This document shows positions 20,786 through 33,055 of a DNA stretch of 33,402 nt, one piece after another (position 1 is the stretch's first letter; every line of letters begins with the position of its first letter). Both the position numbers and the translations under genes were made by a program. The notes beneath the pieces are model-generated. The model had not been told where the DNA came from. It did not search any database and saw nothing but the letters and a program-made list of their open reading frames with translations. This stretch comes from Candidatus Arcticimaribacter sp. (GTDB taxonomy: Bacteria; Bacteroidota; Bacteroidia; Flavobacteriales; Flavobacteriaceae), in contig PAOB01000048.1 of NCBI GenBank assembly GCA_002708445.1, forward strand, positions 1-33,402, written 5' to 3'.

Positions 20786-21628
20786 TTAATTTTTTTGGAA
20801 AGGATTATTCCAAAGAGGTTTTCTTTTTTCTAAAAAAGCACTGAGTCCTTCTTTTGCCTCTGGGGAAGATCGGACTTGGGCGATAGAGTCAGCAGTGAAG
20901 TCCATCAGCTTTTGATCAATTTCTTTGTGTGCTACTTCAAAAACCAAGGCTTTTGTTTTTTGTAGTGCCTCTGGTCCATTTTTTAAAAGAGATTGGGTCA
21001 GCATTTCGATAGCATTTTCCAGTTGATTTGTTTCTGCTATTTCAGAAATAAAACCGTGTTTCAAAGCCATTTCAGAAGTCAGGGTCTCTCCAGTCAACAT
21101 CAAGCGTTTTGCTGTTTTTGTTCCAACCGCTTGGATTACATAAGGAGAAATGGTTGAAGCAATGACACCAATCTTAACTTCACTCAAAGCGAGCTTAATA
21201 TCGGAACTTCCCACTGCAATATCACAACAACATACCAGTCCAACACCGCCGCCAAATACTGCCCCTTTTACTTGAGCAATCGTGGGTTTTGGGTGGTAAT
21301 AAAGGCTGTTCATCAATTGTGCTAGAGCCAAACCATCGGCTTTATTTTCCTCAAATGTATTTTGTCCCATGGTTTTCATGTAGCTGATGTCTCCACCAGC
21401 ACAAAAACTTTTTCCCTCTCCTGTCAAAACAACCACCCTTACTTTTGGGTTAGACTTTGCCTTTTCAAGGGCTTGTGTAAGATTTTTCATTTGCTCTGAA
21501 TCAAAGGCATTGTGAACTTCTGGGCGATTCATCACCAAATACAAGACCCCTCCTGGTGTAATAAACTCTAGTAATTCCTCTTTTGAAGACTGGTTTTTCA
21601 GTCCTAAATTATTTAAATATGACTTCAT
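20786..21628 (-). CDS. Enoyl-CoA hydratase/isomerase, methylglutaconyl-CoA hydratase-like
   Basis: Crotonase-fold enzyme of 280 residues. The oxyanion-hole segments are SFCAGGDISYM and GAVFGGGVGLVCCCDIAV. The acid-base Glu appears in LALSEVKIGVIASTISPYV. The phrase ALSEVKxG...SPYV and the GGGVGL loop resemble 3-methylglutaconyl-CoA hydratase (LiuC) of leucine catabolism more than fatty-acid beta-oxidation hydratases, but sequence alone does not settle the substrate. The N-terminal extension of about 20 residues before the first strand (GGVLYLVMNRPEVHNA) is a little long. It lies 21 bases after the MBL-rhodanese gene; no other leucine-pathway gene is in the window. Confidence 0.85.
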   Translation of the reverse strand: MKSYLNNLGLKNQSSKEELLEFITPGGVLYLVMNRPEVHNAFDSEQMKNLTQALEKAKSNPKVRVVVLTGEGKSFCAGGDISYMKTMGQNTFEENKADGLALAQLMNSLYYHPKPTIAQVKGAVFGGGVGLVCCCDIAVGSSDIKLALSEVKIGVIASTISPYVIQAVGTKTAKRLMLTGETLTSEMALKHGFISEIAETNQLENAIEMLTQSLLKNGPEALQKTKALVFEVAHKEIDQKLMDFTADSIAQVRSSPEAKEGLSAFLEKRKPLWNNPFQKN

Positions 21629-21649
21629 ACATCATTTTTTTTGATAAAC

Positions 21650-23056
21650 TTACAAAGTGGTTGGACAAACATAGTCTGTTGTTTTTATTCCCACTTCTTT
21701 GATGGCCTTAAATCCAAGTTCTACATTCAAAAGATTGTGAATTCCTCTTCTTTTCAAAATCGAGGCGGCTATCATACTGCGGTAACCTCCCGCACAATGA
21801 ACATAAAATTCTTTTTGTTTTGGAAATTCTTCCAGATGTTCATTAATAAAATCTAGAGGAGTATTGGATGCTTGAGGAATATGTTCTGAAGCAAATTCTC
21901 CGGGTTTGCGCACATCAAAGATTTTGGTGTTTCCAGCAATACTGTTTTTAAATTCCTCAGCAGTTATTGATTTTACTTGATCTGTGTCTTTTCCAGAATT
22001 TTTCCAGCTTTCGAATCCTCCTTTGAGTGTACCTAGTGTATTGTCAAAACCTACTCTTGAAAGTCGGGTGATGGTTTCGCGTTCTCTTCCCTTTGGAGTT
22101 ACAAGCAGCAGGGGGTGTTTTACGTCTCCAATAACCGAACCAACCCAAGGAGCAAAACCTCCGTCGAGTCCAATAAAAACAGATTGGGGAATGTGGCCTT
22201 TGGCAAATTCATCTGGACTTCGAACATCCAAAATAATAGCATCCGAATGATTTGCGATTTCTTCGATTTTTTGGGCAGAAAATTCTTTTTGACCTCTCTT
22301 GATTACGTCTTCAAAGTCCTCATAACCTTCTTTGTTCATTTTCACATTCAGAGGAAAGTACGTGGGGGGTGGTAGTAATCCCTCGGTAACCTCTTTGATA
22401 AATTCAGCTTCGGTCATGTTTTCTCGAAGAGCATAGTTTAATTTTTTTTGCTCTCCAAGGGTTCCCACAGTTTCTTTACTTAGGTTTTTTCCACAGGCCG
22501 AACCCGCTCCGTGTGCTGGATAAATAATAACATCATCAGCAAGGGGCATTATTTTAGTTCGTAAACTTTTGTAGAGCATTCCTGCTAGTTGTTCTTGAGA
22601 CATTTTTGCTGCTTTTTGAGCTAAATCTGGACGCCCAACATCCCCCAAGAACAGAGTGTCTCCGCTAAAAATTGCATTATCTTTACCTTCTTTGTCTTTA
22701 AGCAAGTAGGTTGTGCTTTCGGTGGTGTGTCCGGGGGTATGGAGTGCAATTATGGTTAATTCTCCTAGTGAAAATTGTTGCCCATCGGTTGCGATTATTG
22801 ATTCAAAATGTGTCTTTGCTGTAGGTCCAAAAACGATTGGAGCATTTGTTTTTTTTGATAAACTCAGATGTCCACTAACAAAATCTGCATGAAAGTGAGT
22901 TTCAAAAATGTATTTGATTTGAGCGCCATTTTTTTCTGCTTTTTTGAGGTAGGGTGTTGTTTCACGTAAAGGGTCTATGATGGCAGCCTCTCCTTGGCTT
23001 TCAATGTAATATGCGCCTTGCGCTAAACATCCGGTGTAAATTTGTTCGACTAGCAT
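21650..23056 (-). CDS. MBL-fold hydrolase with two rhodanese domains (persulfide dioxygenase-like)
   Basis: 468-residue cytoplasmic protein. The N-terminal metallo-beta-lactamase domain has ETHFHADFVSGH (His54, His56, Asp58, His63), His110 in HTPGH, Asp133 in FSGDTLF and His182 in PAHGAG. The arrangement matches ETHE1/CstB-type sulfur dioxygenases that oxidise glutathione or CoA persulfide. Rhodanese domain 1 (about 260-355) lacks the catalytic Cys (its loop reads TPKGRERE). Domain 2 (about 364-460) keeps Cys421 in CAGGYRS. It follows SulP by six bases, implying one transcript and a link between anion/sulfur uptake and sulfane-sulfur oxidation. Whether the substrate is a persulfide is inferred from the family. 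Confidence 0.9.
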   Translation of the reverse strand: MLVEQIYTGCLAQGAYYIESQGEAAIIDPLRETTPYLKKAEKNGAQIKYIFETHFHADFVSGHLSLSKKTNAPIVFGPTAKTHFESIIATDGQQFSLGELTIIALHTPGHTTESTTYLLKDKEGKDNAIFSGDTLFLGDVGRPDLAQKAAKMSQEQLAGMLYKSLRTKIMPLADDVIIYPAHGAGSACGKNLSKETVGTLGEQKKLNYALRENMTEAEFIKEVTEGLLPPPTYFPLNVKMNKEGYEDFEDVIKRGQKEFSAQKIEEIANHSDAIILDVRSPDEFAKGHIPQSVFIGLDGGFAPWVGSVIGDVKHPLLLVTPKGRERETITRLSRVGFDNTLGTLKGGFESWKNSGKDTDQVKSITAEEFKNSIAGNTKIFDVRKPGEFASEHIPQASNTPLDFINEHLEEFPKQKEFYVHCAGGYRSMIAASILKRRGIHNLLNVELGFKAIKEVGIKTTDYVCPTTL

Positions 23057-23062
23057 TTAGGT

Positions 23063-24820
23063 TTATTTTTTATTAGGGTTTATTTGAGTAAGATTTGTTT
23101 TTATTTGACTTTGAAGGGTTATTTTTTTCTGAATTGCAGAGGTTGTTGTTCCCTCCAAAAAGGCAGTTACTGCTTCTGAGGTTTTGATGAATAAATTTTC
23201 TTCTCCAATTATTTGGATTAAATCATGGTCAAAGATGATGTCGCGCACAGGCCCAGTAGCTCCAGCAATCATAATTTTTAGCCCTTGGTTTTTATGGTCT
23301 TCAAATATTTTTTCTAGCATGCTCAGTGCACTTGAGTCAATGTAATTAATGGTTTCTGCATTGAGGATCACGACTTCTAGGGCATTACCTTTTTCTTTGA
23401 TTTGTTTTGTAAATTCTTTTTTGAAGTAGTCTCTGTTTCCAAAGAACAGTTGTGAATCGAATCGGAGGATTAAAATTCGGTCATCAATTTCAATATCGTT
23501 TTCAAAACGAATGATGTTTTTGTAATACTGGGTTCCTTTGATTTTTCCCAGTACAGCAATATGGGGGTTCGATGTTCGGTAGATCATTGTCAACAGCGAT
23601 ATCAGGGTACCAAAGAGTATTCCCTGAGGAATCCCTGCGGTCATCGTTATGATAAATGTAAATACAAAAGAAATGGATTCTTCTCTGTTTTTGCGCCAAA
23701 GTTTTCTGGGGTAATTAAAATCGATCAAACCAAAAATTGAAACCATAATAATTGCGGCTAAAATTGGAATGGGGAGATAATAAAAAAGATGGGTCAAAAA
23801 AAGCAGGGTAAGCAGTACAAGTCCTGCACTGAATAAGGATGCAATCCCTGATTTTGCTCCTCCTTGATCTTGAATAGTTGATCTGGAAAAGGATGCAGTA
23901 GTGGGGTATGATTGGGCAAAAGATCCTACAATATTTGCACTACCCAATGCAATTAATTCTTGATTGGGATCTACTTCGTATTCGGTGTGTCTTTCTTCTA
24001 TGGCTTTAGCAATTGATATTGCCTCAGTAAAACCAACCATTGCCAGTGTGATGGCAACAGGAATAAGCTCTGTAAACTGGTTTTTGTCAAAACTTGGAAT
24101 ACTCAAATCTGGAAGCCCATGGGGGATATCTCCTACAATTTTTATTCCGACAAGCTGCCATTGAGTAAAATACAACAGCAGGGTCCCAAGAGCTACAACA
24201 AGCAGAATTGCAGGAATTTTTTTGTTTATTTTTTGAAAAGTTTTGATCAGTACGATTCCCATCACCCCCAGTCCAAAACTAAGTAGATGGGTTTTTGAAA
24301 TGTTCGATACGACTTCACTTAGAAGGACATGAATTTGATTTGTTTGCACCAAATTAATGCCCAAAATATGTTTCAATTGACTCAGGCCAATAATTATTGC
24401 AGCAGCAGAGGTAAATCCACTCAAAACGGGTTTGGATAGAAAATTGACTAAAAAACCAAGTTTGAAGGCTCCTAACAACAATTGAATTGAGCCCACAAAA
24501 AGTGCCAGGAAAACAGCAGCAGCAATGTATTGTTCAAATCCAACAATTTGGAGGGTACCGATCCCAGCAGCAACAATCAAAGAATCCATTGCAACGGGTC
24601 CTATGGACAGCTGTCGGGAAGTACCCATAACTGCATAAATGATTTGTGGAGTCAGTGCAGCATAAAGCCCAAAAACAGGGGGTAGTCCTGCGATCATAGC
24701 ATAAGCCATTCCTTGAGCAATCGCTAATATTCCGGCAGTAGTTCCAGAAATAGCATCATTCCAAAGCATCTTTTTTTGGTACTTGGGAAGCCATTGCAGT
24801 ATTGGAAAAAGCTGTTTCAA
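23063..24820 (-). CDS. SulP-family inorganic anion transporter
   Basis: Inner-membrane transporter of 585 residues for sulfate, bicarbonate or a related anion. It starts at a TTG (complement of 24818-24820), which gives the family N-terminus (KQLFPILQWLPKYQK) before the first helix; no ATG is suitably placed. Family signatures are AIAQGMAYAMIAGLPPVFGLYAAL, SIGPVAMDSL, GSANIVGSF and PTTASFSRS. A cytoplasmic STAS domain occupies about 430-560, with NYIDSSALSMLEKI around the regulatory serine. It is the promoter-proximal gene of a unit with the MBL-rhodanese gene. Sulfate is the obvious guess given that partner, but Bacteroidota SulP proteins also pair with carbonic anhydrases and may carry bicarbonate. 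Confidence 0.93.
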   Translation of the reverse strand: MKQLFPILQWLPKYQKKMLWNDAISGTTAGILAIAQGMAYAMIAGLPPVFGLYAALTPQIIYAVMGTSRQLSIGPVAMDSLIVAAGIGTLQIVGFEQYIAAAVFLALFVGSIQLLLGAFKLGFLVNFLSKPVLSGFTSAAAIIIGLSQLKHILGINLVQTNQIHVLLSEVVSNISKTHLLSFGLGVMGIVLIKTFQKINKKIPAILLVVALGTLLLYFTQWQLVGIKIVGDIPHGLPDLSIPSFDKNQFTELIPVAITLAMVGFTEAISIAKAIEERHTEYEVDPNQELIALGSANIVGSFAQSYPTTASFSRSTIQDQGGAKSGIASLFSAGLVLLTLLFLTHLFYYLPIPILAAIIMVSIFGLIDFNYPRKLWRKNREESISFVFTFIITMTAGIPQGILFGTLISLLTMIYRTSNPHIAVLGKIKGTQYYKNIIRFENDIEIDDRILILRFDSQLFFGNRDYFKKEFTKQIKEKGNALEVVILNAETINYIDSSALSMLEKIFEDHKNQGLKIMIAGATGPVRDIIFDHDLIQIIGEENLFIKTSEAVTAFLEGTTTSAIQKKITLQSQIKTNLTQINPNKK

Positions 24821-24834
24821 AAAATTTGTTTTTA

Positions 24835-24842
24835 CAAAAGTA
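24835..24842 (-). promoter_or_regulatory. Possible -7 promoter element for the SulP operon
   Basis: The minus strand reads TACTTTTG (TAnnTTTG), only about 14 bases before the TTG start, implying a very short leader. The -33 element is not clear. Confidence 0.35.
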
Positions 24843-24923
24843 CGTTATCTTATTTTATTGCTTTAGTGCTCAAAAAGTTAAAGATACTGATTGAATCTGT
24901 TTTTTTGATCTATCCAAATTAAA

Positions 24924-24956
24924 TTTGCAATCCTTGTAAAAAGAAACTTAAATTTG
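24924..24956 (+). promoter_or_regulatory. Bacteroidota-type promoter of the 53-residue miniprotein
   Basis: TTTG (24924-24927), a 21-base spacer, then TAAATTTG (24949-24956): a full match to the TTTG-N19-21-TAnnTTTG consensus. The miniprotein ATG is 15 bases downstream. Confidence 0.65.
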
Positions 24957-24971
24957 ACTAGGAATTACTTT

Positions 24972-25133
24972 ATGTTAAAAAAGAGCTTTAAACAGCATTT
25001 AAAAGAGCTGCCAGAAGTAGTAAAAAGAACGGATCCTAAGAAATTTTATCCTTTATTGGTTGGATTGTTTTTGTTGCCTGGGGGTTCGTTTCTCTGTCTT
25101 TTTGCCCTGTACTTGAGATTTTTAAAAAAATAA
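24972..25133 (+). CDS. Small membrane protein, 53 residues
   Basis: An unbroken frame from ATG at 24972 to TAA at 25131. The first half is basic and polar (MLKKSFKQHLKELPEVVKRT, DPKKFYP). The second half is one membrane helix, LLVGLFLLPGGSFLCLFAL, ending in positive charges (YLRFLKK). A near-consensus promoter sits just upstream, and the codon use looks like that of its neighbours. It is divergent from SulP (151 bases between starts) and ends six bases before the convergent tocopherol-cyclase-family gene. I do not recognise a family. The promoter plus the charge pattern argue for a real gene. Confidence 0.7.
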   Translation: MLKKSFKQHLKELPEVVKRTDPKKFYPLLVGLFLLPGGSFLCLFALYLRFLKK

Positions 25134-25139
25134 GTTGAC

Positions 25140-26111
25140 TTATTTTAGTAAAACAGCATAATTCCCTGCAACTTCAATTCCTGCTGATGTTCCTATGTCT
25201 TCCAACAAGATTTCCCCTGTTTTTATTTTCATCAATTTTAGGTGAATTTTAGCATTCATACTCTCCTCAATTCGTGCATCCATAAAACCAGCAATTGGAG
25301 CTGCCAGTGGGGTTGCTTTCTCTCGCTCTGCTCGAATCCATAGTTTGTGCGATTTATTTCCCATTTCGATTATCACCTCTTTTTTAGAAACAGAACACTG
25401 CTTTAATTGAGTTTTGTTGTAGGTTGTAAATTGAATTAGTTCTCCATGAATCAAAACCCCAGCAATATAACCGATAAAGGAAGATCCGATCCAAGGGATT
25501 TTGGCTATCGATACTTTGACGGATATTCCTGCTTTACTGAAATGATTGCTTTGCATCCAAACATAACCCTCCGGAAAAGAATGTCCCCAGTCTTTTTCCA
25601 TGTACCCTCTTCCTTGTTCAAAAGAAATGACTTTATCTTGATGAATCAAGCTTCCCTCAATGCGGTGGTCCATACTCAAAATTCCGTGGTAACATTCCAT
25701 AAAGGGAACAAAAGAAAAAGGCCCCATAATACCGGGCGAATTCCAGCTGCTCGGCCACGGATTCCTGTCCCTAAATCGTAAACTTCCTTTTAAGTCTGGT
25801 AGATCAAGCTCAATGCTGTTATTTGTAAAACGATTTTTTCCAATTTGTAAATCATGTGTTTTGGGTTTAGGAATAAATTCTTGAGCGTTAAATTTATGAT
25901 AGGAAGCTTTGAGATTTCTTCCGTCTAAAACTTGAATAAAAGCTTGTTTTTCGCCATTTTCGTCCATTGCAATTCCGGGAATTATTGCAAGTGCCTGTTT
26001 TTGATCTGAACTTATTATTTTGTAATACCAGCCCTCAAAAAATCTTTTGGATTTTCCCCGACCGTGATAGCATTCTGGATTCCATATCGCATGAATTTGG
26101 TTGAGTAACAT
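25140..26111 (-). CDS. Tocopherol cyclase family protein
   Basis: 323-residue protein without a signal peptide. The opening IWNPECYHGRGKSKRFFEGWYYKII, the central MGPFSFVPFMECYHGILS and QGRGYMEKDWGHSFPEGYVWMQSNHF are the conserved blocks of the tocopherol cyclase (VTE1) family, a lipocalin-like double beta-barrel. The plant and cyanobacterial enzyme closes the chromanol ring of vitamin E. No other tocopherol gene is in the window, and Bacteroidota are not known for tocopherol synthesis, so the substrate is probably another isoprenoid quinol or lipid. It starts three bases after the DUF6503 stop and is the last gene of a three-gene unit with the MscS channel. Confidence 0.85.
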   Translation of the reverse strand: MLLNQIHAIWNPECYHGRGKSKRFFEGWYYKIISSDQKQALAIIPGIAMDENGEKQAFIQVLDGRNLKASYHKFNAQEFIPKPKTHDLQIGKNRFTNNSIELDLPDLKGSLRFRDRNPWPSSWNSPGIMGPFSFVPFMECYHGILSMDHRIEGSLIHQDKVISFEQGRGYMEKDWGHSFPEGYVWMQSNHFSKAGISVKVSIAKIPWIGSSFIGYIAGVLIHGELIQFTTYNKTQLKQCSVSKKEVIIEMGNKSHKLWIRAEREKATPLAAPIAGFMDARIEESMNAKIHLKLMKIKTGEILLEDIGTSAGIEVAGNYAVLLK

Positions 26112-26114
26112 AAA

Positions 26115-26837
26115 TTATTGATGGTTTGACTTTTTAAACAGAAAATCAGTTCCGAGGTATTTGTCGTTTTTGTTGTAATACCAAGCTCTATTTCTGGGCA
26201 TTTTGATTCCGTTGACTACAATTTCTTCGGTCAATAGAATGTACTCCCCATCGTTTTTTGATTCCTCATGATAAAACTGATAAACTTCCATGGCAAAAGT
26301 GATCGGATCGAAATAAAAATACCAACGGTCATTTCCCACCTCTTTTTCATAATCTACTTGAGCAACCCAATATTCTTTTCCTTTAAAGCTTCGTTTTTCA
26401 ATCTTGGGATTGATTCGTGTACCTGGGTCGTTGAGTTTCATCGGAAGACCGTACAAATAGGTGTAGTAATCTCTTGTTCGTTTGGTTTGATCGCAAGTGA
26501 GGCGGTATTTTTTTTGTTCTTCGGAGGTAAATTTGGCCTTCCTATTGAAGAGAATCGAACAAACTCCTTTGTCTAATTCTTGAAAAATTAAATTTGAATC
26601 GCTGTTGTACTGATTTCTAAAATATTCTTTTTGCAAATCAAAAAACACAGAACTTATTCTCGGATCCTTAGATGGAGTTTCCATGGTGATTTTCAATTCA
26701 CCAGAAAATTTAGCCCAATTGTTATTTGGGTCGTGATACTGAATGCTTTTATCGATCAGTTCTTTGCCTGTCATATTTTGTTCCAATGAAATAAAACATG
26801 AGAGTAGAAGTCCTGTAAAAAGTATTTTTTTAAACAT
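26115..26837 (-). CDS. DUF6503 family exported protein, possible lipoprotein
   Basis: 240-residue protein when started at the ATG at 26835-26837, which directly opens the signal segment MFKKILFTGLLLSC; an upstream Met at 26867 adds ten residues inside the MscS gene. LLSC at positions 11-14 fits a lipobox, though conventional cleavage near SLEQN is also possible. The mature part has GKELIDKSIQYHDPNNNWAKFSG, FFDLQKEYF, YLYGLPMKLNDPGT and WYFYFDPITFAMEVYQFYH, the pattern of the DUF6503 family, a LolA-like beta-sheet envelope protein of unknown function. It overlaps the MscS stop by eight bases and is three bases from the tocopherol-cyclase gene. Confidence 0.78.
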   Translation of the reverse strand: MFKKILFTGLLLSCFISLEQNMTGKELIDKSIQYHDPNNNWAKFSGELKITMETPSKDPRISSVFFDLQKEYFRNQYNSDSNLIFQELDKGVCSILFNRKAKFTSEEQKKYRLTCDQTKRTRDYYTYLYGLPMKLNDPGTRINPKIEKRSFKGKEYWVAQVDYEKEVGNDRWYFYFDPITFAMEVYQFYHEESKNDGEYILLTEEIVVNGIKMPRNRAWYYNKNDKYLGTDFLFKKSNHQ

Positions 26838-28071
26838 TTGACGGAGGAAATACAGGTGAGAGTTCAAAGCACTCTAATTGAAAATATTCAGTAGAGGCCA
26901 ACAAATGGTCAAAAATATCTGCAACAATATGCTCATAGTTTTTCCACACTTTATCTTTGCTAAAGACGTAGATTTCGATGGGAATACCTTGAGGACTTGG
27001 TGCCAATTGTCTACACATCAAAGTCATGTCTTTATTCAACATGGGGTGCTGCTCCAAATAGGCTTCTGTGTAATTTCTAAACAACCCAATATTGGTTAGG
27101 TTACGCCCATTTATCAATAGAGATTTGTCTGCCTTTGAATTTGAATTATGCGCTTTGATGTCATTTTCCTTGGTTTGGATAAATTCAGACAATAATTTGA
27201 TTTTTTTGAGTTGTAAAAGCTCTTCGTCTTTTAGAAAGTGAACACTACTTACTTTGATCAGAAGCGAGCGTTTGATTCTTCTTCCAGGAGAATCGCTCAT
27301 TCCTCGCCAATTGATGAAAGAGTCAGAAATTAATTTGTAGGTTGGAATGGATGTAATGGTGTTGTCAAAATTTTGTACTTGAACTGTTGAAAGGCTGATG
27401 CTAATTATGTTACCATCTGCATTGCTGTTGGGCATACTAATCCAGTCTCCAATTCGAACGGTATCGTTAACTGTAATTTGAACACTAGCGACAAATCCCA
27501 AAATGGTGTCTTTGAAAACAAAGAGTAATACTGCGGATAGGGCTCCTAGTGTGGTCAAAAAAGCTCCTACTTCGGTTCCGGTCAGTACAGAGAGAATAAT
27601 AATTCCTCCAATAAACCAAAGAAAGATCATAATCACCTGAATGTAGCTGTCAATGGGTTTGTCTTTGAAGGTTCTCAATGTTTTTAAATAATCATTAAGC
27701 GATTTCAACAAAGCACGAGTTAGCGCAATAGCCACAATTACTGATATTGCCTCAAAAACATTTTCGAGCCATTGATATGATGTTAAAAGCTCAGGAACAA
27801 GCTTGTGTAACAAATACAACGAGGGGAAATAAGAGAGTAATTTGGGTGTTCTGTGGGAGAGCAAAATATCATCGAAGGTACTTTTGGTTTTTCTAGAAAC
27901 TCGAGTAAAGAACCCAATAATAATCTTCCTAGAAATCCAAAAAAGAAATATTGAAATGAGGATGTATGACAAAAGAAGAATTCCCGTTGTGGTCACTTCA
28001 GCAAGATTTTCAGTCAAACCATTTTCAAGAAGTTTTTTGTAGATGATTGATGATATTTCTGAGCTTTGCAT
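26830..28071 (-). CDS. MscS-family mechanosensitive channel (YbdG-like)
   Basis: Inner-membrane tension-gated channel of 413 residues. Five hydrophobic helices lie in the first 190 residues (for example ILLLSYILISIFLFW, VIMIFLWFIGGIIIL). The pore helix and beta domain follow: FLTTLGALSAVLLFVFKDTILGFVASVQI, NDTVRIGDWISMP, ISLSTVQVQNFDNTITSIPTYKLIS. The long insertion after the beta domain and the SPQGIPIEIYVFSKDKVW tail fit the YbdG/MscM type rather than small MscS. It would release solutes on hypo-osmotic shock. It heads the unit with DUF6503 and the tocopherol-cyclase-family gene. A weak TAATTTG lies just upstream of its start. Confidence 0.93.
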   Translation of the reverse strand: MQSSEISSIIYKKLLENGLTENLAEVTTTGILLLSYILISIFLFWISRKIIIGFFTRVSRKTKSTFDDILLSHRTPKLLSYFPSLYLLHKLVPELLTSYQWLENVFEAISVIVAIALTRALLKSLNDYLKTLRTFKDKPIDSYIQVIMIFLWFIGGIIILSVLTGTEVGAFLTTLGALSAVLLFVFKDTILGFVASVQITVNDTVRIGDWISMPNSNADGNIISISLSTVQVQNFDNTITSIPTYKLISDSFINWRGMSDSPGRRIKRSLLIKVSSVHFLKDEELLQLKKIKLLSEFIQTKENDIKAHNSNSKADKSLLINGRNLTNIGLFRNYTEAYLEQHPMLNKDMTLMCRQLAPSPQGIPIEIYVFSKDKVWKNYEHIVADIFDHLLASTEYFQLECFELSPVFPPSNV

Positions 28072-28317
28072 GTTTTTTATTTTTATGCAAATTAGTTTTT
28101 TTTCATGGAAACTTGAGTTTTGACCCTCTTAAAACATTAGAAATAATTATTTGATGCCCCCTGCATTGATATGTTTGTTTGGAAGTATTGGATAGATTGA
28201 GCGAATCCTAATAATCAAAGACTATTTGGATACAAATTGGGTAAAGTGAGAGCTTGCTTGGCTCCAAGAAAATCACTTTAAAAAGATTTCATAACTTAGT
28301 TGAAAATCTTTTCAATT

Positions 28318-29619
28318 ATGCGATTTTCCCATCAAATAAATGTATTACTAATTATCTTTCTTATTTGTAGTTGTTCTCAAGAAAAAAAGTCTAAACCCAT
28401 GTCCAGTTTAACGAAAGCCGAACAAATCCACAAAGCTGTAATAACGATTGATACCCATGACGATATTAATACGGGAAATTTTACTGATTCTCTGAATTAC
28501 AGTTCCGAAACTCAATCTCAAGTTCATTTACCCGGAATGCAAGAGGGAGGACTTGATGTGGCATGGTTTATTGTCTACACCGGACAAGACAGTTTGAATG
28601 CATCTGGTTATGCCAAAGCAGCAGCAAATGCGGATGATAAGTTTAGTGCCATTCATCGTTTGGTAAAAACGTATGCCCCCGATCAATTAGAACTAGCACT
28701 TACAGCAAATGATGTTAGAAGGATATGGAAAAGTGGAAAAAAAGTTGCCATGATTGGAGTCGAAAACGGGTATCCAATAGGCGAGGACATCAACAATGTT
28801 GAGGTTTTTTACAATCGTGGAGCACGCTACATGTCGTTGGCTCATAACGGGCACAGTCAGCTATCAGATTCTAATACAGGCGAAAAGGATAATGTTTATT
28901 TGCATAATGGTCTCAGCGATTTGGGAAAGCAAGTCATCGAGAAAATGAATTATTACGGAATGATGATCGATATTTCGCACCCTTCAAAAGAAGCAATCCG
29001 ACAAATGATTGAGCATTCAAAAGCTCCAGTAATTGCCTCCCATTCATCGGCTCGAACTTTGTGTGATCATTCCAGAAATTTAGACGATGAGCAATTACAA
29101 TGGGTCAAAGAAAGTGGAGGAGTGGTTCAAACAGTTGCTTTTAGTTCTTATTTGAATACCGAAAAGCACAACAATTACTTTAAAGCCAAAGATGCTCTTC
29201 TTAAAAGTATTGGAGCCAAAAACAACATTGAGGTTTTGGACAAATACCAGATGAGAGCCTTGGAATTTGATGAGCTTCAGAAGTACATCAAAGAAAGCAA
29301 AAAATTAGAGTCTTTAGTAAAAGACCAACTTACAGCTCTCAAGAAAGACGTTCCACCTGTTTCGGTTAGTGATTTTGTAGATCATATTGATTACATCAAA
29401 AATAAAATTGGGATCGATCATGTGGGAATTAGCTCCGATTTTGATGGTGGAGGCGGAATAGAGGGCTGGAGTGATGCTTCAGAGACTTTAAATGTTACCA
29501 AAGAGCTTGTTAAAAGAGGATACACTCAAGAACAAATTGAAAAAATTTGGGGAGGTAACTTGTTGCGTGTTATGGAACAAGTGGAAGCATTAGCTTCTGA
29601 TTTACAAAAATTTAAATAA
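28318..29619 (+). CDS. Membrane dipeptidase (peptidase M19) lipoprotein
   Basis: Zinc dipeptidase of 433 residues related to renal dipeptidase. I use the ATG at 28318, not the in-frame TTG at 28300, because it places the lipobox ICSC with Cys19 after a normal signal segment. Motifs are IDTHDDI (His47 and Asp49 as metal ligands), MIGVENGYPIG with the bridging Glu149, SLAHNGHSQL, MIDISHPSKE, IASHSSART and HVGISSDFDGGGG. Location is periplasmic or outer-membrane attached. The family cleaves dipeptides including Cys-Gly and some with D-residues. It is ten bases upstream of a GGT-family lipoprotein, suggesting sequential degradation of gamma-glutamyl peptides. Confidence 0.92.
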   Translation: MRFSHQINVLLIIFLICSCSQEKKSKPMSSLTKAEQIHKAVITIDTHDDINTGNFTDSLNYSSETQSQVHLPGMQEGGLDVAWFIVYTGQDSLNASGYAKAAANADDKFSAIHRLVKTYAPDQLELALTANDVRRIWKSGKKVAMIGVENGYPIGEDINNVEVFYNRGARYMSLAHNGHSQLSDSNTGEKDNVYLHNGLSDLGKQVIEKMNYYGMMIDISHPSKEAIRQMIEHSKAPVIASHSSARTLCDHSRNLDDEQLQWVKESGGVVQTVAFSSYLNTEKHNNYFKAKDALLKSIGAKNNIEVLDKYQMRALEFDELQKYIKESKKLESLVKDQLTALKKDVPPVSVSDFVDHIDYIKNKIGIDHVGISSDFDGGGGIEGWSDASETLNVTKELVKRGYTQEQIEKIWGGNLLRVMEQVEALASDLQKFK

Positions 29620-29629
29620 AAATTGTATT

Positions 29630-31237
29630 ATGAAAGTTTGTATTAAGTTTTCGACCTTAATGTTTTTGCTGTTGTTTTTTTCATCTTGTAATTCATTTTA
29701 TGAAAAAGCAAAAATTAAGAACAATGTGGTTTCTAGCGCACATCCTTTGGCGACAAAATCAGGAATATCAATGTATCAAATGGGAGGAAATGCCTTTGAT
29801 GCTGCTGTAGCCTCGGCTTTTACATTAGCTGTAGTTGAGCCTAGTATGAGTGGAATTGGTGGAAGACTTCAGGCAATTTACAAAAAGGAAGACGGCAAAA
29901 TTGGTGGGGTAGACGCTTCGACTGAGGTGCCTACGAATTATGTTCCTTTGGAAGAAAAGTTCTCTTATGGTTATGAAACCATTGGGATTCCGGGGGTTGT
30001 TGCAGGGTTAATTAAATTGCAAAAAGAACACGGTTTACTCGACCTGTACACGGTTATGCAACCAGCAATTGATTATGCCGAAAGGGGATTTATGATTTTA
30101 CCGGGCGAAACTTATCGTCAAGGATTGGTTCTGGATGAGCTCAAAGAATTTGAAGGAACGGCAGAAAATTTTCTAAACAGCGATGGTTCAGTTTTAAAAG
30201 CAAATTCTCTTTTTATTCAGAAAAATCTTGGTACAACTCTAAAAGCAATCTCCGCCCAAGGTCATAAAGGTTTTTACGAAGGAGAAATAGCAGAAAAAAT
30301 GGTAAAAGACGTTCAATCTCACGGCGGGATATTGACTTTAGAAGACCTGAAAAATTACAAAGCATTGGACGCCGAAGTAGTCGAAGGTATTTACAGAGGG
30401 CATAAGGTTCACGCCCTGTATTTGCCGTCTTTTGGAGCTATTACTGTTCAGATTTTACAGATTTTAGACCAAATAAAACCCCCTCTTTCCGAAAATGATT
30501 GGGCGGTAACTATGGGAAAAGCGATTCGATATGCGTATCAATTCCGGAAAGCTCAAAAGTATCCAGATTCTTTAAAAATGATTTTGTCTTACAAAAATGC
30601 AGGAAAAATTGCACAGGAGATTGACGGTCAAACACAAACTATTGCTTCTGTGGAGTCCTCACAAATTCCTGAATCATGGAAAGCCCCCGATGGGCATACA
30701 ACCCATTTAACAACCGCCGATTCCTCCGGAAATGTTGTTTCCCTAACCCAGACAGTTGGTCCAATAATGGGGTCAAAAGTGGCCTCAAAAGGTCTTGGGT
30801 TTATTTATGCTGTTACCCTTGGGGGATATCTTGGAGATTACAAACCCGGCGATCGTGCGAACTCTCATATTTCACCAACACTACTTTCAAAAAAAGACAA
30901 GGTTGTTCTTGCCCTCGGTGCGGCAGGTGGAAGTAGAATTGTTCCAGCTGTTGTTCAGGTAGTTAGTCGTTATGTCGATCAGAATATTTCTCTAGAAAAA
31001 GCCTTGATTCTTCCTAGAGTTTATCCTGTTGGAGATACACTTTGGGTGGAAAATCACTCAAAAATTTCTGAGATTAACGCGGATCTTGACCCGGTTCTTC
31101 AGCCTCACAAAATGATCGATAAAATTGCCCGTTTTGGAAGAGTTCATGCCGTTGCAATTGATAGTTTAAAAACTTCTTGGAACGGAGCTGCCGATCCAGA
31201 TTGGGAAGGTACCTCTGAGTCATTTATTGAAGATTGA
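29630..31237 (+). CDS. Gamma-glutamyltranspeptidase-family lipoprotein with altered substrate pocket
   Basis: 535-residue Ntn-hydrolase precursor. The signal segment ends in the lipobox SSCN (Cys20). GGT landmarks are VSSAHPLATKSGISMYQMGGNAFDAAVASAF, MSGIGG, GYETIGIPGVVAGL and GGILTLEDLKNY. The self-cleavage and nucleophile site is GHTTHLTTAD, giving Thr357 as the new N-terminus, and ALGAAGGSRI holds the oxyanion glycines. However, the FREMAP arginine that binds the glutamyl carboxylate reads VDASTEVP, the NNQMDDF block that binds the alpha-amino group reads YAVTLGGYLG, and SSMSPT reads SHISPT. Self-processing looks possible, but gamma-glutamyl specificity is doubtful. It probably shares a transcript with the M19 dipeptidase. 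Confidence 0.88.
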   Translation: MKVCIKFSTLMFLLLFFSSCNSFYEKAKIKNNVVSSAHPLATKSGISMYQMGGNAFDAAVASAFTLAVVEPSMSGIGGRLQAIYKKEDGKIGGVDASTEVPTNYVPLEEKFSYGYETIGIPGVVAGLIKLQKEHGLLDLYTVMQPAIDYAERGFMILPGETYRQGLVLDELKEFEGTAENFLNSDGSVLKANSLFIQKNLGTTLKAISAQGHKGFYEGEIAEKMVKDVQSHGGILTLEDLKNYKALDAEVVEGIYRGHKVHALYLPSFGAITVQILQILDQIKPPLSENDWAVTMGKAIRYAYQFRKAQKYPDSLKMILSYKNAGKIAQEIDGQTQTIASVESSQIPESWKAPDGHTTHLTTADSSGNVVSLTQTVGPIMGSKVASKGLGFIYAVTLGGYLGDYKPGDRANSHISPTLLSKKDKVVLALGAAGGSRIVPAVVQVVSRYVDQNISLEKALILPRVYPVGDTLWVENHSKISEINADLDPVLQPHKMIDKIARFGRVHAVAIDSLKTSWNGAADPDWEGTSESFIED

Positions 31238-31297
31238 CAGGAGCGTCATCAATGTTTGAAACTTTTTTTTTAATTGAGAAAAAAGCTTATTTAAGGA

Positions 31298-31329
31298 TTT
31301 GAGACAAAACAAAAGTATTCATATATTTG
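31298..31329 (+). promoter_or_regulatory. Bacteroidota-type promoter of the carbonic anhydrase unit
   Basis: TTTG (31298-31301), a 20-base spacer, then TATATTTG (31322-31329): a complete match to TTTG-N19-21-TAnnTTTG, 19 bases before the ATG of the small exported protein. Confidence 0.65.
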
Positions 31330-31348
31330 CAGTACAAACGTATTTTTG

Positions 31349-31645
31349 ATGCCCAAAAAAAGAACAATCATACTTTTTTCATTAGTATCCCTACTTTTCA
31401 TAGTTTCACCTGTAGCTCACGTTATTACCCAAAACTCTCTAGATGTTTCTGAAATATTTTCTAACTCTGAGGAAGAAAAAGGGAATGAAAAGCATTTGGA
31501 TTTTGAAATTTTATTACCCCTACTCAAATCCAACAATTCTCAATATTTTGCATATTCAAAAAAGAGTACCCTAGCTTACGTATCAAAAAGGTATTCAAAA
31601 CCTCGTTTGAATATTATTTCTCCACCCCCAGATTTTTTCTTGTAA
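31349..31645 (+). CDS. Small exported or membrane-anchored protein, 98 residues
   Basis: I start at the ATG at 31349; a TTG one codon earlier is in frame. The product has one N-terminal hydrophobic segment (TIILFSLVSLLFIVSPVAHV) that could be a signal peptide or anchor. An acidic middle follows (SEIFSNSEEEKGNEKHLDFE), then a basic, proline-ending tail (RYSKPRLNIISPPPDFFL). I do not recognise a domain. It has a strong promoter and lies 110 bases upstream of a carbonic anhydrase gene. The split of acidic and basic halves suggests a small interaction protein rather than an enzyme. Confidence 0.7.
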   Translation: MPKKRTIILFSLVSLLFIVSPVAHVITQNSLDVSEIFSNSEEEKGNEKHLDFEILLPLLKSNNSQYFAYSKKSTLAYVSKRYSKPRLNIISPPPDFFL

Positions 31646-31755
31646 AATTTTCACGCAAAACGCATAAAACATACTTTTAGTAAAGCTCAAAATTTACTTT
31701 AAGTTTTGCACTAATTAAGGTGTTAAAAAGTAAAAAAACAGTTAAAACAATAGAA

Positions 31756-32385
31756 ATGAAAGCACACACAAAAGAAACACAAGCATCAATAACCCCTGAT
31801 TCTGCAATGCAACTCCTAAAAGAGGGGAACACCAGGTTTCAAGAAAAAACAAAAGTAAATCGGGATTTGATGGAACAAGTGAAAGATACAAGTAAAGGAC
31901 AATATCCTTTTGCTACAATCTTAAGTTGTATTGATTCTAGAGTATCTTCAGAATTGATTTTTGATCAGGGAATAGGGGATATTTTTAGTGCTCGTATTGC
32001 AGGAAACTTTGTGAATGACGATATTCTTGGGAGTATGGAGTTTGCGTGTAAACTTGCAGGGACAAAACTTATTCTTGTTTTGGGACACACGGCTTGCGGA
32101 GCTGTAAAGGGAGCTTGCGATGACGCTAAATTAGGAAATCTAACGGGGATGTTATCAAAAATCAAACCAGCAGTAAATGGAGTTAGCTCTCCAGAAGATG
32201 CTAGCCTAAGAAATTCATCGAACATTGATTTTGTGAATGAAGTAGCTAAAAAAAATGTAGAGCTTACGATTGATAAAATTGTAGAGGATAGTCCAGTTTT
32301 AGGAGAAATGCAAACCAATGGAGAAATTAAAATAGTAGGTGGGATGTATGATATTAATTCAGGAGTAGTTCATTTCTATGACTAA
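31756..32385 (+). CDS. Beta-class carbonic anhydrase
   Basis: Interconverts CO2 and bicarbonate. The start chosen is the ATG at 31756 (209 residues), which gives the N-terminus normal for Bacteroidota orthologues (MKAHTKETQASITP); a GTG at 31720 is also in frame. Zinc ligands and the catalytic dyad are Cys58, Asp60 and Arg62 in LSCIDSR, and His111 and Cys114 in GHTACGAVKGA. There is no signal peptide, so it is cytoplasmic. It overlaps the DUF2490 start by eight bases. In relatives, carbonic anhydrase often travels with SulP transporters; here the SulP gene is 7 kb away. Confidence 0.95.
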   Translation: MKAHTKETQASITPDSAMQLLKEGNTRFQEKTKVNRDLMEQVKDTSKGQYPFATILSCIDSRVSSELIFDQGIGDIFSARIAGNFVNDDILGSMEFACKLAGTKLILVLGHTACGAVKGACDDAKLGNLTGMLSKIKPAVNGVSSPEDASLRNSSNIDFVNEVAKKNVELTIDKIVEDSPVLGEMQTNGEIKIVGGMYDINSGVVHFYD

Positions 32386-33055
32386 AAATAAATTGATAAA
32401 AAGATCATTTTGGGTAGCGTTGACTTTGGTGTTTGCGCTACCAAATTTGGTTCAAGGACAAGAAAGTAACTTAGGAAATTGGTTGATTTACATCGGAAAC
32501 AAGCAATTGAATGAAAAATGGAATTTGCATCATGAGGTTCAGTATCGAAACTACGATGCTATTGGTGATCTAGAGCAGTTGTTGTTGAGAACTGGATTGG
32601 GTTACACCTTTGGAGAAAGTAAAAAAAACATTCTTCTGGGATACGGTTACATCTTATCGGAGAATTACAATTCCGAAATGGATCTAAAAAAGAGTGTAAA
32701 TGAGCACCGAATTTTTCAACAATTCATATCAAAACAAAAACTAGGGAAACTGAAATTGAGTCATCGATATCGTTTTGAACAACGTTTTGTCGAATCTGAT
32801 TTTAAAATGCGGGTTCGTTATTTTCTAGGGGTTAATGTTCCAATCAGTTCTGAAGAAGAAAACAAGTATTATTTTTCTGCATACAATGAGTTGTTTTTGA
32901 ACACAAAATCCAAACTTTACGATCGGAACAGATTGTATAGTGGATTTGGCTATAATTTAAACAAAAAAGTAAGACTAGAATTGGGATACATGAACCAGTT
33001 TTTTAACGAAGGAAGAAGAGATCAATTGAACATCTTTACTTTTGTTAATCTTTAA
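32378..33055 (+). CDS. DUF2490 family outer-membrane protein
   Basis: 225-residue exported protein. The signal peptide reads RSFWVALTLVFALPNLVQGQ with cleavage before or at the Gln. The mature protein begins SNLGNWLIYIGNKQLNEKWNLHHEVQYR, the signature of DUF2490. It continues with alternating strands (TGLGYTFGE, LLGYGYILS, SHRYRFEQRFV, YFLGVNVPI, YSGFGYNL, VRLELGYMNQFF) ending in a C-terminal FVNL, typical of a beta-barrel. It is translationally coupled to carbonic anhydrase. Function unknown; the repeated pairing with carbonic anhydrase suggests a role in anion or bicarbonate passage, but nothing in the sequence proves it. Confidence 0.88.
   Translation: MTKNKLIKRSFWVALTLVFALPNLVQGQESNLGNWLIYIGNKQLNEKWNLHHEVQYRNYDAIGDLEQLLLRTGLGYTFGESKKNILLGYGYILSENYNSEMDLKKSVNEHRIFQQFISKQKLGKLKLSHRYRFEQRFVESDFKMRVRYFLGVNVPISSEEENKYYFSAYNELFLNTKSKLYDRNRLYSGFGYNLNKKVRLELGYMNQFFNEGRRDQLNIFTFVNL

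Follow-up and report, generated by a model that had tools for sequence, protein, structure and literature searches.

A YbdG-type channel gene, a DUF6503 gene and a PF14249 gene form what looks like a lineage-specific operon in a clade of marine Flavobacteriaceae

Three adjacent minus-strand genes of a Candidatus Arcticimaribacter sp. genome, encoding a YbdG-type MscS channel, a DUF6503 protein and a PF14249 protein, look like a genuine operon, built from known families but confined to one lineage: the arrangement appears local, and a widespread joint system is not indicated. Our preferred reading, to which we give a probability of about 0.6, is that this operon arose once from three otherwise independent genes and that its products act in parallel. 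The window referred to below is the whole stretch of DNA that was analysed, 33,402 nucleotides of contig PAOB01000048.1. The features concerned are the following.

24972-25133, plus strand: small convergent ORF of 53 aa, hydrophobic, 6 bp from the PF14249 stop
25140-26111, minus strand: PF14249 gene, 323 aa, last in the unit
26115-26837, minus strand: DUF6503 gene, 240 aa from its ATG, middle gene
26830-26837, minus strand: overlap of the MscS stop and the DUF6503 ATG, ATGTTTAA, 8 bp, suggestive of translational coupling
26830-28071, minus strand: YbdG-type MscS channel gene, 413 aa, first in the unit
28072-28317: intergenic region separating the unit from the divergent M19 dipeptidase gene, where the unit's promoter is presumed to lie

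The original prediction described a tight co-directional three-gene unit, and the three minus-strand reading frames were confirmed at these positions, with an 8-base overlap between the MscS and DUF6503 genes and a gap of 3 bases between the DUF6503 and PF14249 genes. The family names given there also hold, as each protein scores above its Pfam cut-off (52.0 bits against 20.2 for PF00924 in the channel, 162.4 against 22.9 for PF20113 in the DUF6503 protein, and 84.3 against a gathering cut-off of 26.6 for PF14249), which places the second and third proteins in their families; no NCBIfam model was above its cut-off for any of the three. A mechanical list of ORFs contains an alternative upstream TTG start for DUF6503 (26867). 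We prefer the ATG because eight of the nine genomes that carry the unit hold it in an identical ATGTTTAA overlap; the ninth (L047) reads TAATG. Co-expression, also predicted, is probable from the sequence, and from the arrangement we infer one mRNA with translationally coupled expression of the three genes. Tight packing by itself is ordinary in the window, where 12 of the 25 same-strand neighbour pairs (genes of at least 90 aa) are separated by 10 bp or less. What exceeds this background is the retention of the gene order in eight other genomes despite their divergence, though with a single origin.

In all nine unit genomes a TA(A/T)TTTGCA stretch can be aligned immediately before the MscS start. 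The Bacteroidota promoter box TAnnTTTG, scanned for strictly, is absent from the 300 bp upstream in the window. Consensus scans found 17 promoter-like sites where shuffled sequences gave 11.3 (sd 3.5), and 2 terminator-like sites where they gave 2.3; neither these nor the promoter-box scan gave a clear promoter or terminator for the unit. The unit's 3' end may be marked by the 53-aa convergent ORF, which forms a single cluster present in 8 of the 9 unit loci and matches no Pfam family at E 0.001.

Our comparison set comprised 149 genomes, the window's own included, with PF14249 in 16 of them, DUF6503 in 62 and some channel match in 127. The complete unit is present in nine of the 19 genomes of the genus, namely the window's own and G001, G002, G004, G007, G009, G012, G016 and G018; for G016 and G018 the DUF6503 ORF was dropped by the simple gene caller and recovered by tblastn. 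A close YbdG-type homologue (72-93% identity) is found in exactly these nine carriers. The other ten genomes of the genus, several of them incomplete, yielded weak MscS matches and no close YbdG-type homologue, and in four genomes of the genus the PF14249 gene is present without a YbdG-type channel. At the farthest, carriers have diverged to 72% identity in the MscS and PF14249 proteins and to 64-66% in the DUF6503 protein. Both internal junctions are nevertheless intact in all eight other carriers, while the outer boundaries are repeatedly broken: the SulP and PF14249 genes are adjacent in two of the eight and the MscS and M19 genes in four, with one of the six SulP-PF14249 breaks (L051) due to a small ORF called at 121 aa. 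The three unit genes are under purifying selection, with dN/dS values of 0.045-0.302 over five genome pairs; the neighbouring SulP (three pairs) and M19 genes gave 0.047-0.222. In an rpoB tree, from which G083, G001 (where nothing matched) and G004 (where some 66 positions matched) are left out, the seven usable carriers of the nine form one clade with support of 99/95, and the nine PF14249 proteins of the unit fall into one group on their own tree (SH-aLRT 84). Because the carriers form a single clade, the conservation reflects one historical event held over moderate divergence, and with one origin it does not amount to independent replication.

Between the M19 and enoyl-CoA hydratase genes lies a variable site (20786-28317), which in the window holds a SulP module and the unit. 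Comparison with three loci (L251-L253) found that in G005 the interval bounded by these M19 and hydratase genes contains, in place of the unit, genes that by eye encode a transporter and a sugar-kinase-like protein, that G013 is similar, with a kinase-like ORF beside a part where gene calling was poor, and that in G010, where the contig ends before the hydratase gene, the same transporter as in G005 follows M19. The SulP gene and a metallo-beta-lactamase/rhodanese gene (21650-24820) make up a second module downstream of the unit, and this pair is intact in 7 of 7 cases. A CRP-like regulator accompanies the SulP/rhodanese module in several loci; in G005 and G013 (L254, L255) this regulator and SulP occur together elsewhere, along with the rhodanese gene in G013. 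On the other side, genes for an M19 dipeptidase, a gamma-glutamyltranspeptidase, a carbonic anhydrase and a DUF2490 protein run in one direction (28318-33055), and the dipeptidase and transpeptidase would suit glutathione breakdown.

To look beyond the carrier clade we used a scan of public genomes with a PF14249 alignment, from which the best 80 of at least 531 confirmed stretches were taken, a sample that leans to close relatives. Seven of these 80 carry the unit, on contigs already counted. Adding 15 loci from relatives to the 80 and removing 12 on the same contigs and 8 unit loci leaves 75 other distinct PF14249 loci. None of them has a channel match within the stretch covered (tblastn, E up to 1e-10), some of the stretches being so short that a more distant channel partner could be missed. 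A DUF6503 gene accompanies one of them (L068), at a distance of 3.2 kb and on the opposite strand. A widespread operon is rejected on these counts. Close same-strand neighbours (at least 80 aa, within 60 bp) accompany the PF14249 gene in 18 of 72 loci, that is, the 75 minus L077, L132 and L140, where this gene is absent from the gene caller or clustering output; judged by eye the neighbours are of many kinds, and recurrent PF14249 partners were likewise rejected. The original prediction of a general joint envelope/quinol system had named scattering of the three genes in related genomes as the outcome that would count against it. Outside one clade they are scattered, and the general system is not supported.

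The other two genes vary in their surroundings as well. In four other genomes of the genus (L056, L057, L058 and L060) DUF6503 adjoins one gene family, an M20 peptidase in L056, and in ten further relatives (L031-L040) its neighbours differ (by eye). A gene of 95-97 aa, a DUF3817 gene in L226, precedes the channel gene in 4 of 11 channel regions of other genera. Judged by eye, 38 relatives outside the clade possess both channel and DUF6503 genes, and the two are adjacent in one of the 38. In G020 (L220, 3534-5678) a YbdG-type channel gene is followed 96 bp on by a same-strand DUF6503 gene, which belongs to another subfamily and, judged by eye, is lipoprotein-like; the two genes lie farther apart, though still near each other, in G028 (1.5 kb) and G054 (5.1 kb). 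These three genomes hint that a link between channel and carrier may be more than local.

The channel protein is 39% identical to E. coli K-12 YbdG over an alignment of 387 columns, and its nearest PDB sequences are YnaI chains (E about 1e-8). With its PF00924 domain and homology across most of YbdG it belongs to the YbdG type. The genomic setting differs, as K-12 ybdG sits between pheP and nfsB whereas the channel gene of the window is in a unit with DUF6503 and PF14249 genes. According to the available part of one report, E. coli without YbdG dies at a lower salt level after sudden downshock (PMC4005912). Because the channel is a YbdG homologue, a link between the unit and membrane stress is possible.

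For the DUF6503 protein, sequence searches match PF20113 only, and the open literature searched yielded nothing on this family. Its N-terminal segment is signal-like by eye. An AF2 model built from nine sequences (pLDDT 72.6) has the LolA-type structures 4mxt and 3buu as top matches at Z 8.5, with LprG, LolB and RseB lower; most of the 20 best entries are chains of LolA, LolB, RseB and LprG, with no Foldseek E-value below 0.001 and unrelated polo-box chains appearing at Z 5. We therefore predict a LolA/LolB-superfamily fold at modest confidence, in line with the LolA-like character first proposed; against the likeness to these carriers stand the single-family sequence match and a model of moderate confidence. 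The window's own genome contains a second DUF6503 match (G000:C43:8812-9457) in two pieces, one with an internal TAG stop, which would be either a decayed gene or an assembly error.

The PF14249 protein gave a model of pLDDT 92.0 and much closer fold matches. The best is CghA (Z 23.9, 282 residues, 3.2 A); CghA, Fsa2 and Phm7 lie around Z 23, followed by AttH NE1406 (20.3), kievitone hydratase (19.5) and 25-phosphosteroid lyase (18.5). These full-length matches cover 257-285 residues at Z 17.4-23.9, and Z falls to 7.8 after 14 entries. The shared full-length fold places the protein in the AttH/kievitone hydratase/lipocalin-like Diels-Alderase group, from whose members it differs in sequence (8-14% identity) and which differ in their substrates; a search of the PDB by sequence gave no credible match. 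Enzymes of the CghA, AttH and kievitone hydratase type are cofactor-free and act on hydrophobic polyenes, phenols or steroids. The protein had been taken for an envelope lipocalin. By eye we see no signal peptide and expect a cytosolic protein instead; with the model, this makes a prenyl-lipid cyclase or hydratase of the cytosol probable.

Its relation to the tocopherol cyclases is partial. Tocopherol-cyclase-like proteins of heterotrophic bacteria have already been reported, and the motif YxEKNWG is conserved in the tocopherol cyclases of photosynthetic organisms (PMC4963081, available part). Like VTE1 and Slr1737, the window protein exceeds the PF14249 cut-off and has motifs near YxEKNWG and FP+xWxW+QxNxF, as these are given in the accessible sections of the same source. 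Unlike them, it is 323 aa long, carries EKDWG and not EKNWG, and has no HPT partner identified. It reads YMEKDWG and thus departs by one residue from the motif of tocopherol cyclase (EC 5.5.1.24). EKDWG is invariant in all 51 aligned rows, drawn from 84 distinct PF14249 loci, nearly all from Bacteroidota and one from Ca. Tenebribacter, and the exchange of EKNWG for EKDWG is possibly a sign of a different reaction.

The genes that would supply a prenylated substrate were considered as well. UbiA-family matches number two to three per genome in the nine genomes searched. In the one genome typed (G007) these matches comprise MenA, heme O synthase and a prenyltransferase that reaches no NCBIfam cut-off, with no homogentisate prenyltransferase identified, and a tocopherol pathway is rejected as far as these UbiA genes were typed. 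G005, a genome of the genus without PF14249, has as many UbiA genes as the PF14249-bearing genomes; therefore no prenyltransferase tracks the PF14249 gene. Haloplasma and clostridia are not known to contain menaquinone. Relatives are reported in bacteria such as these, and the Arabidopsis tocopherol cyclase is described as inactive on menaquinol-4 (PMC4963081, in the text available). With no tocopherol prenyltransferase identified, and with the plant enzyme inactive on menaquinol-4 according to that text, the quinol idea is unsupported; its menaquinol form is weak, MenA being the sole quinone prenyltransferase identified, typed in one genome.

Other explanations can be weighed against a single-origin operon with parallel products. 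Insertion at a variable site of a compact genome may simply have left the genes side by side, with co-expression under no selection. Nearly half of the same-strand pairs in the window are equally tight, the unit has a single origin, the M19/enoyl-CoA hydratase site differs among sister genomes, and the unit is not unique in its stability, as the neighbouring SulP-rhodanese pair is also intact throughout. We still consider such neutral clustering rather unlikely, because the internal junctions are intact in 8 of 8 other carriers while both boundaries were repeatedly broken, and because the same overlapping start recurs in eight of nine genomes. Very improbable, in our judgement, is a functional pair of the channel and DUF6503, the latter a periplasmic sensor or ligand carrier acting in the manner of RseB, with the PF14249 gene as a chance addition. 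The second adjacency in G020, the looser proximity in G028 and G054 and the presence of RseB among the predicted fold matches of DUF6503 speak for it, but the two genes adjoin in just one of the 38 outside relatives possessing both, and DUF6503 neighbours vary.

A joint envelope lipid system, in which the PF14249 protein would cyclise a prenyl lipid (for example to a menaquinol-derived chromanol), DUF6503 would carry it across the periplasm and the channel would couple the process to membrane tension, accords with the tight conserved unit, with a carrier-like fold predicted beside a predicted cyclase/hydratase fold, and with MenA as the one quinone prenyltransferase identified. We regard it as distinctly unlikely, given that the linkage is not conserved outside the clade, that in four genomes of the genus the PF14249 gene occurs with no YbdG-type channel, that the Arabidopsis cyclase is inactive on menaquinol-4 in the available text of PMC4963081, and that D replaces N of YxEKNWG in every aligned row.

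The lineage-specific operon that we prefer would have a single origin, in a clade of marine Flavobacteriaceae to which Ca. Arcticimaribacter (NS5_F) belongs, with its three products made together from one mRNA with translational coupling. The channel would be a YbdG-type inner-membrane valve that opens on hypo-osmotic swelling; the DUF6503 protein would be exported to the periplasm and there, much as LolA or LprG does, bind a hydrophobic ligand; and the PF14249 protein would stay in the cytosol, where it would protonate, cyclise or hydrate a prenyl lipid with no need of a cofactor. The products would most likely serve membrane upkeep under osmotic and cold stress in parallel, and not as one complex or pathway.

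Three of the seven named carrier records are Ca. Arcticimaribacter (L063, L066) or NS5_F (L064, FRAM18_bin181); the remaining four bear neither name. As far as the available part of PMC9122927 goes, FRAM18_bin181 is NS5_F, NS5_F peaks below 5 deg C and below 33 psu, and it includes the cultured isolate A. forsetii AHE01FL. This cold, low-salinity range fits a need for osmotic and membrane protection, without being proof of it. No report of an MscS/DUF6503/PF14249 unit was found in the open literature searched, and in the carrier clade a tocopherol-cyclase-like gene has constant partners. Should A. forsetii AHE01FL carry the unit, the operon and its lipid products could be tested in this isolate. 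A further idea, to which we assign very little probability, is tension-linked lipid maintenance, with the cytosolic cyclase converting menaquinol or another prenyl lipid into a new chromanol-like antioxidant and the LolA-like DUF6503 delivering this product to the outer membrane upon osmotic downshift in cold, fresher water; if true, it would give the tocopherol-cyclase-like proteins of heterotrophic bacteria a role.
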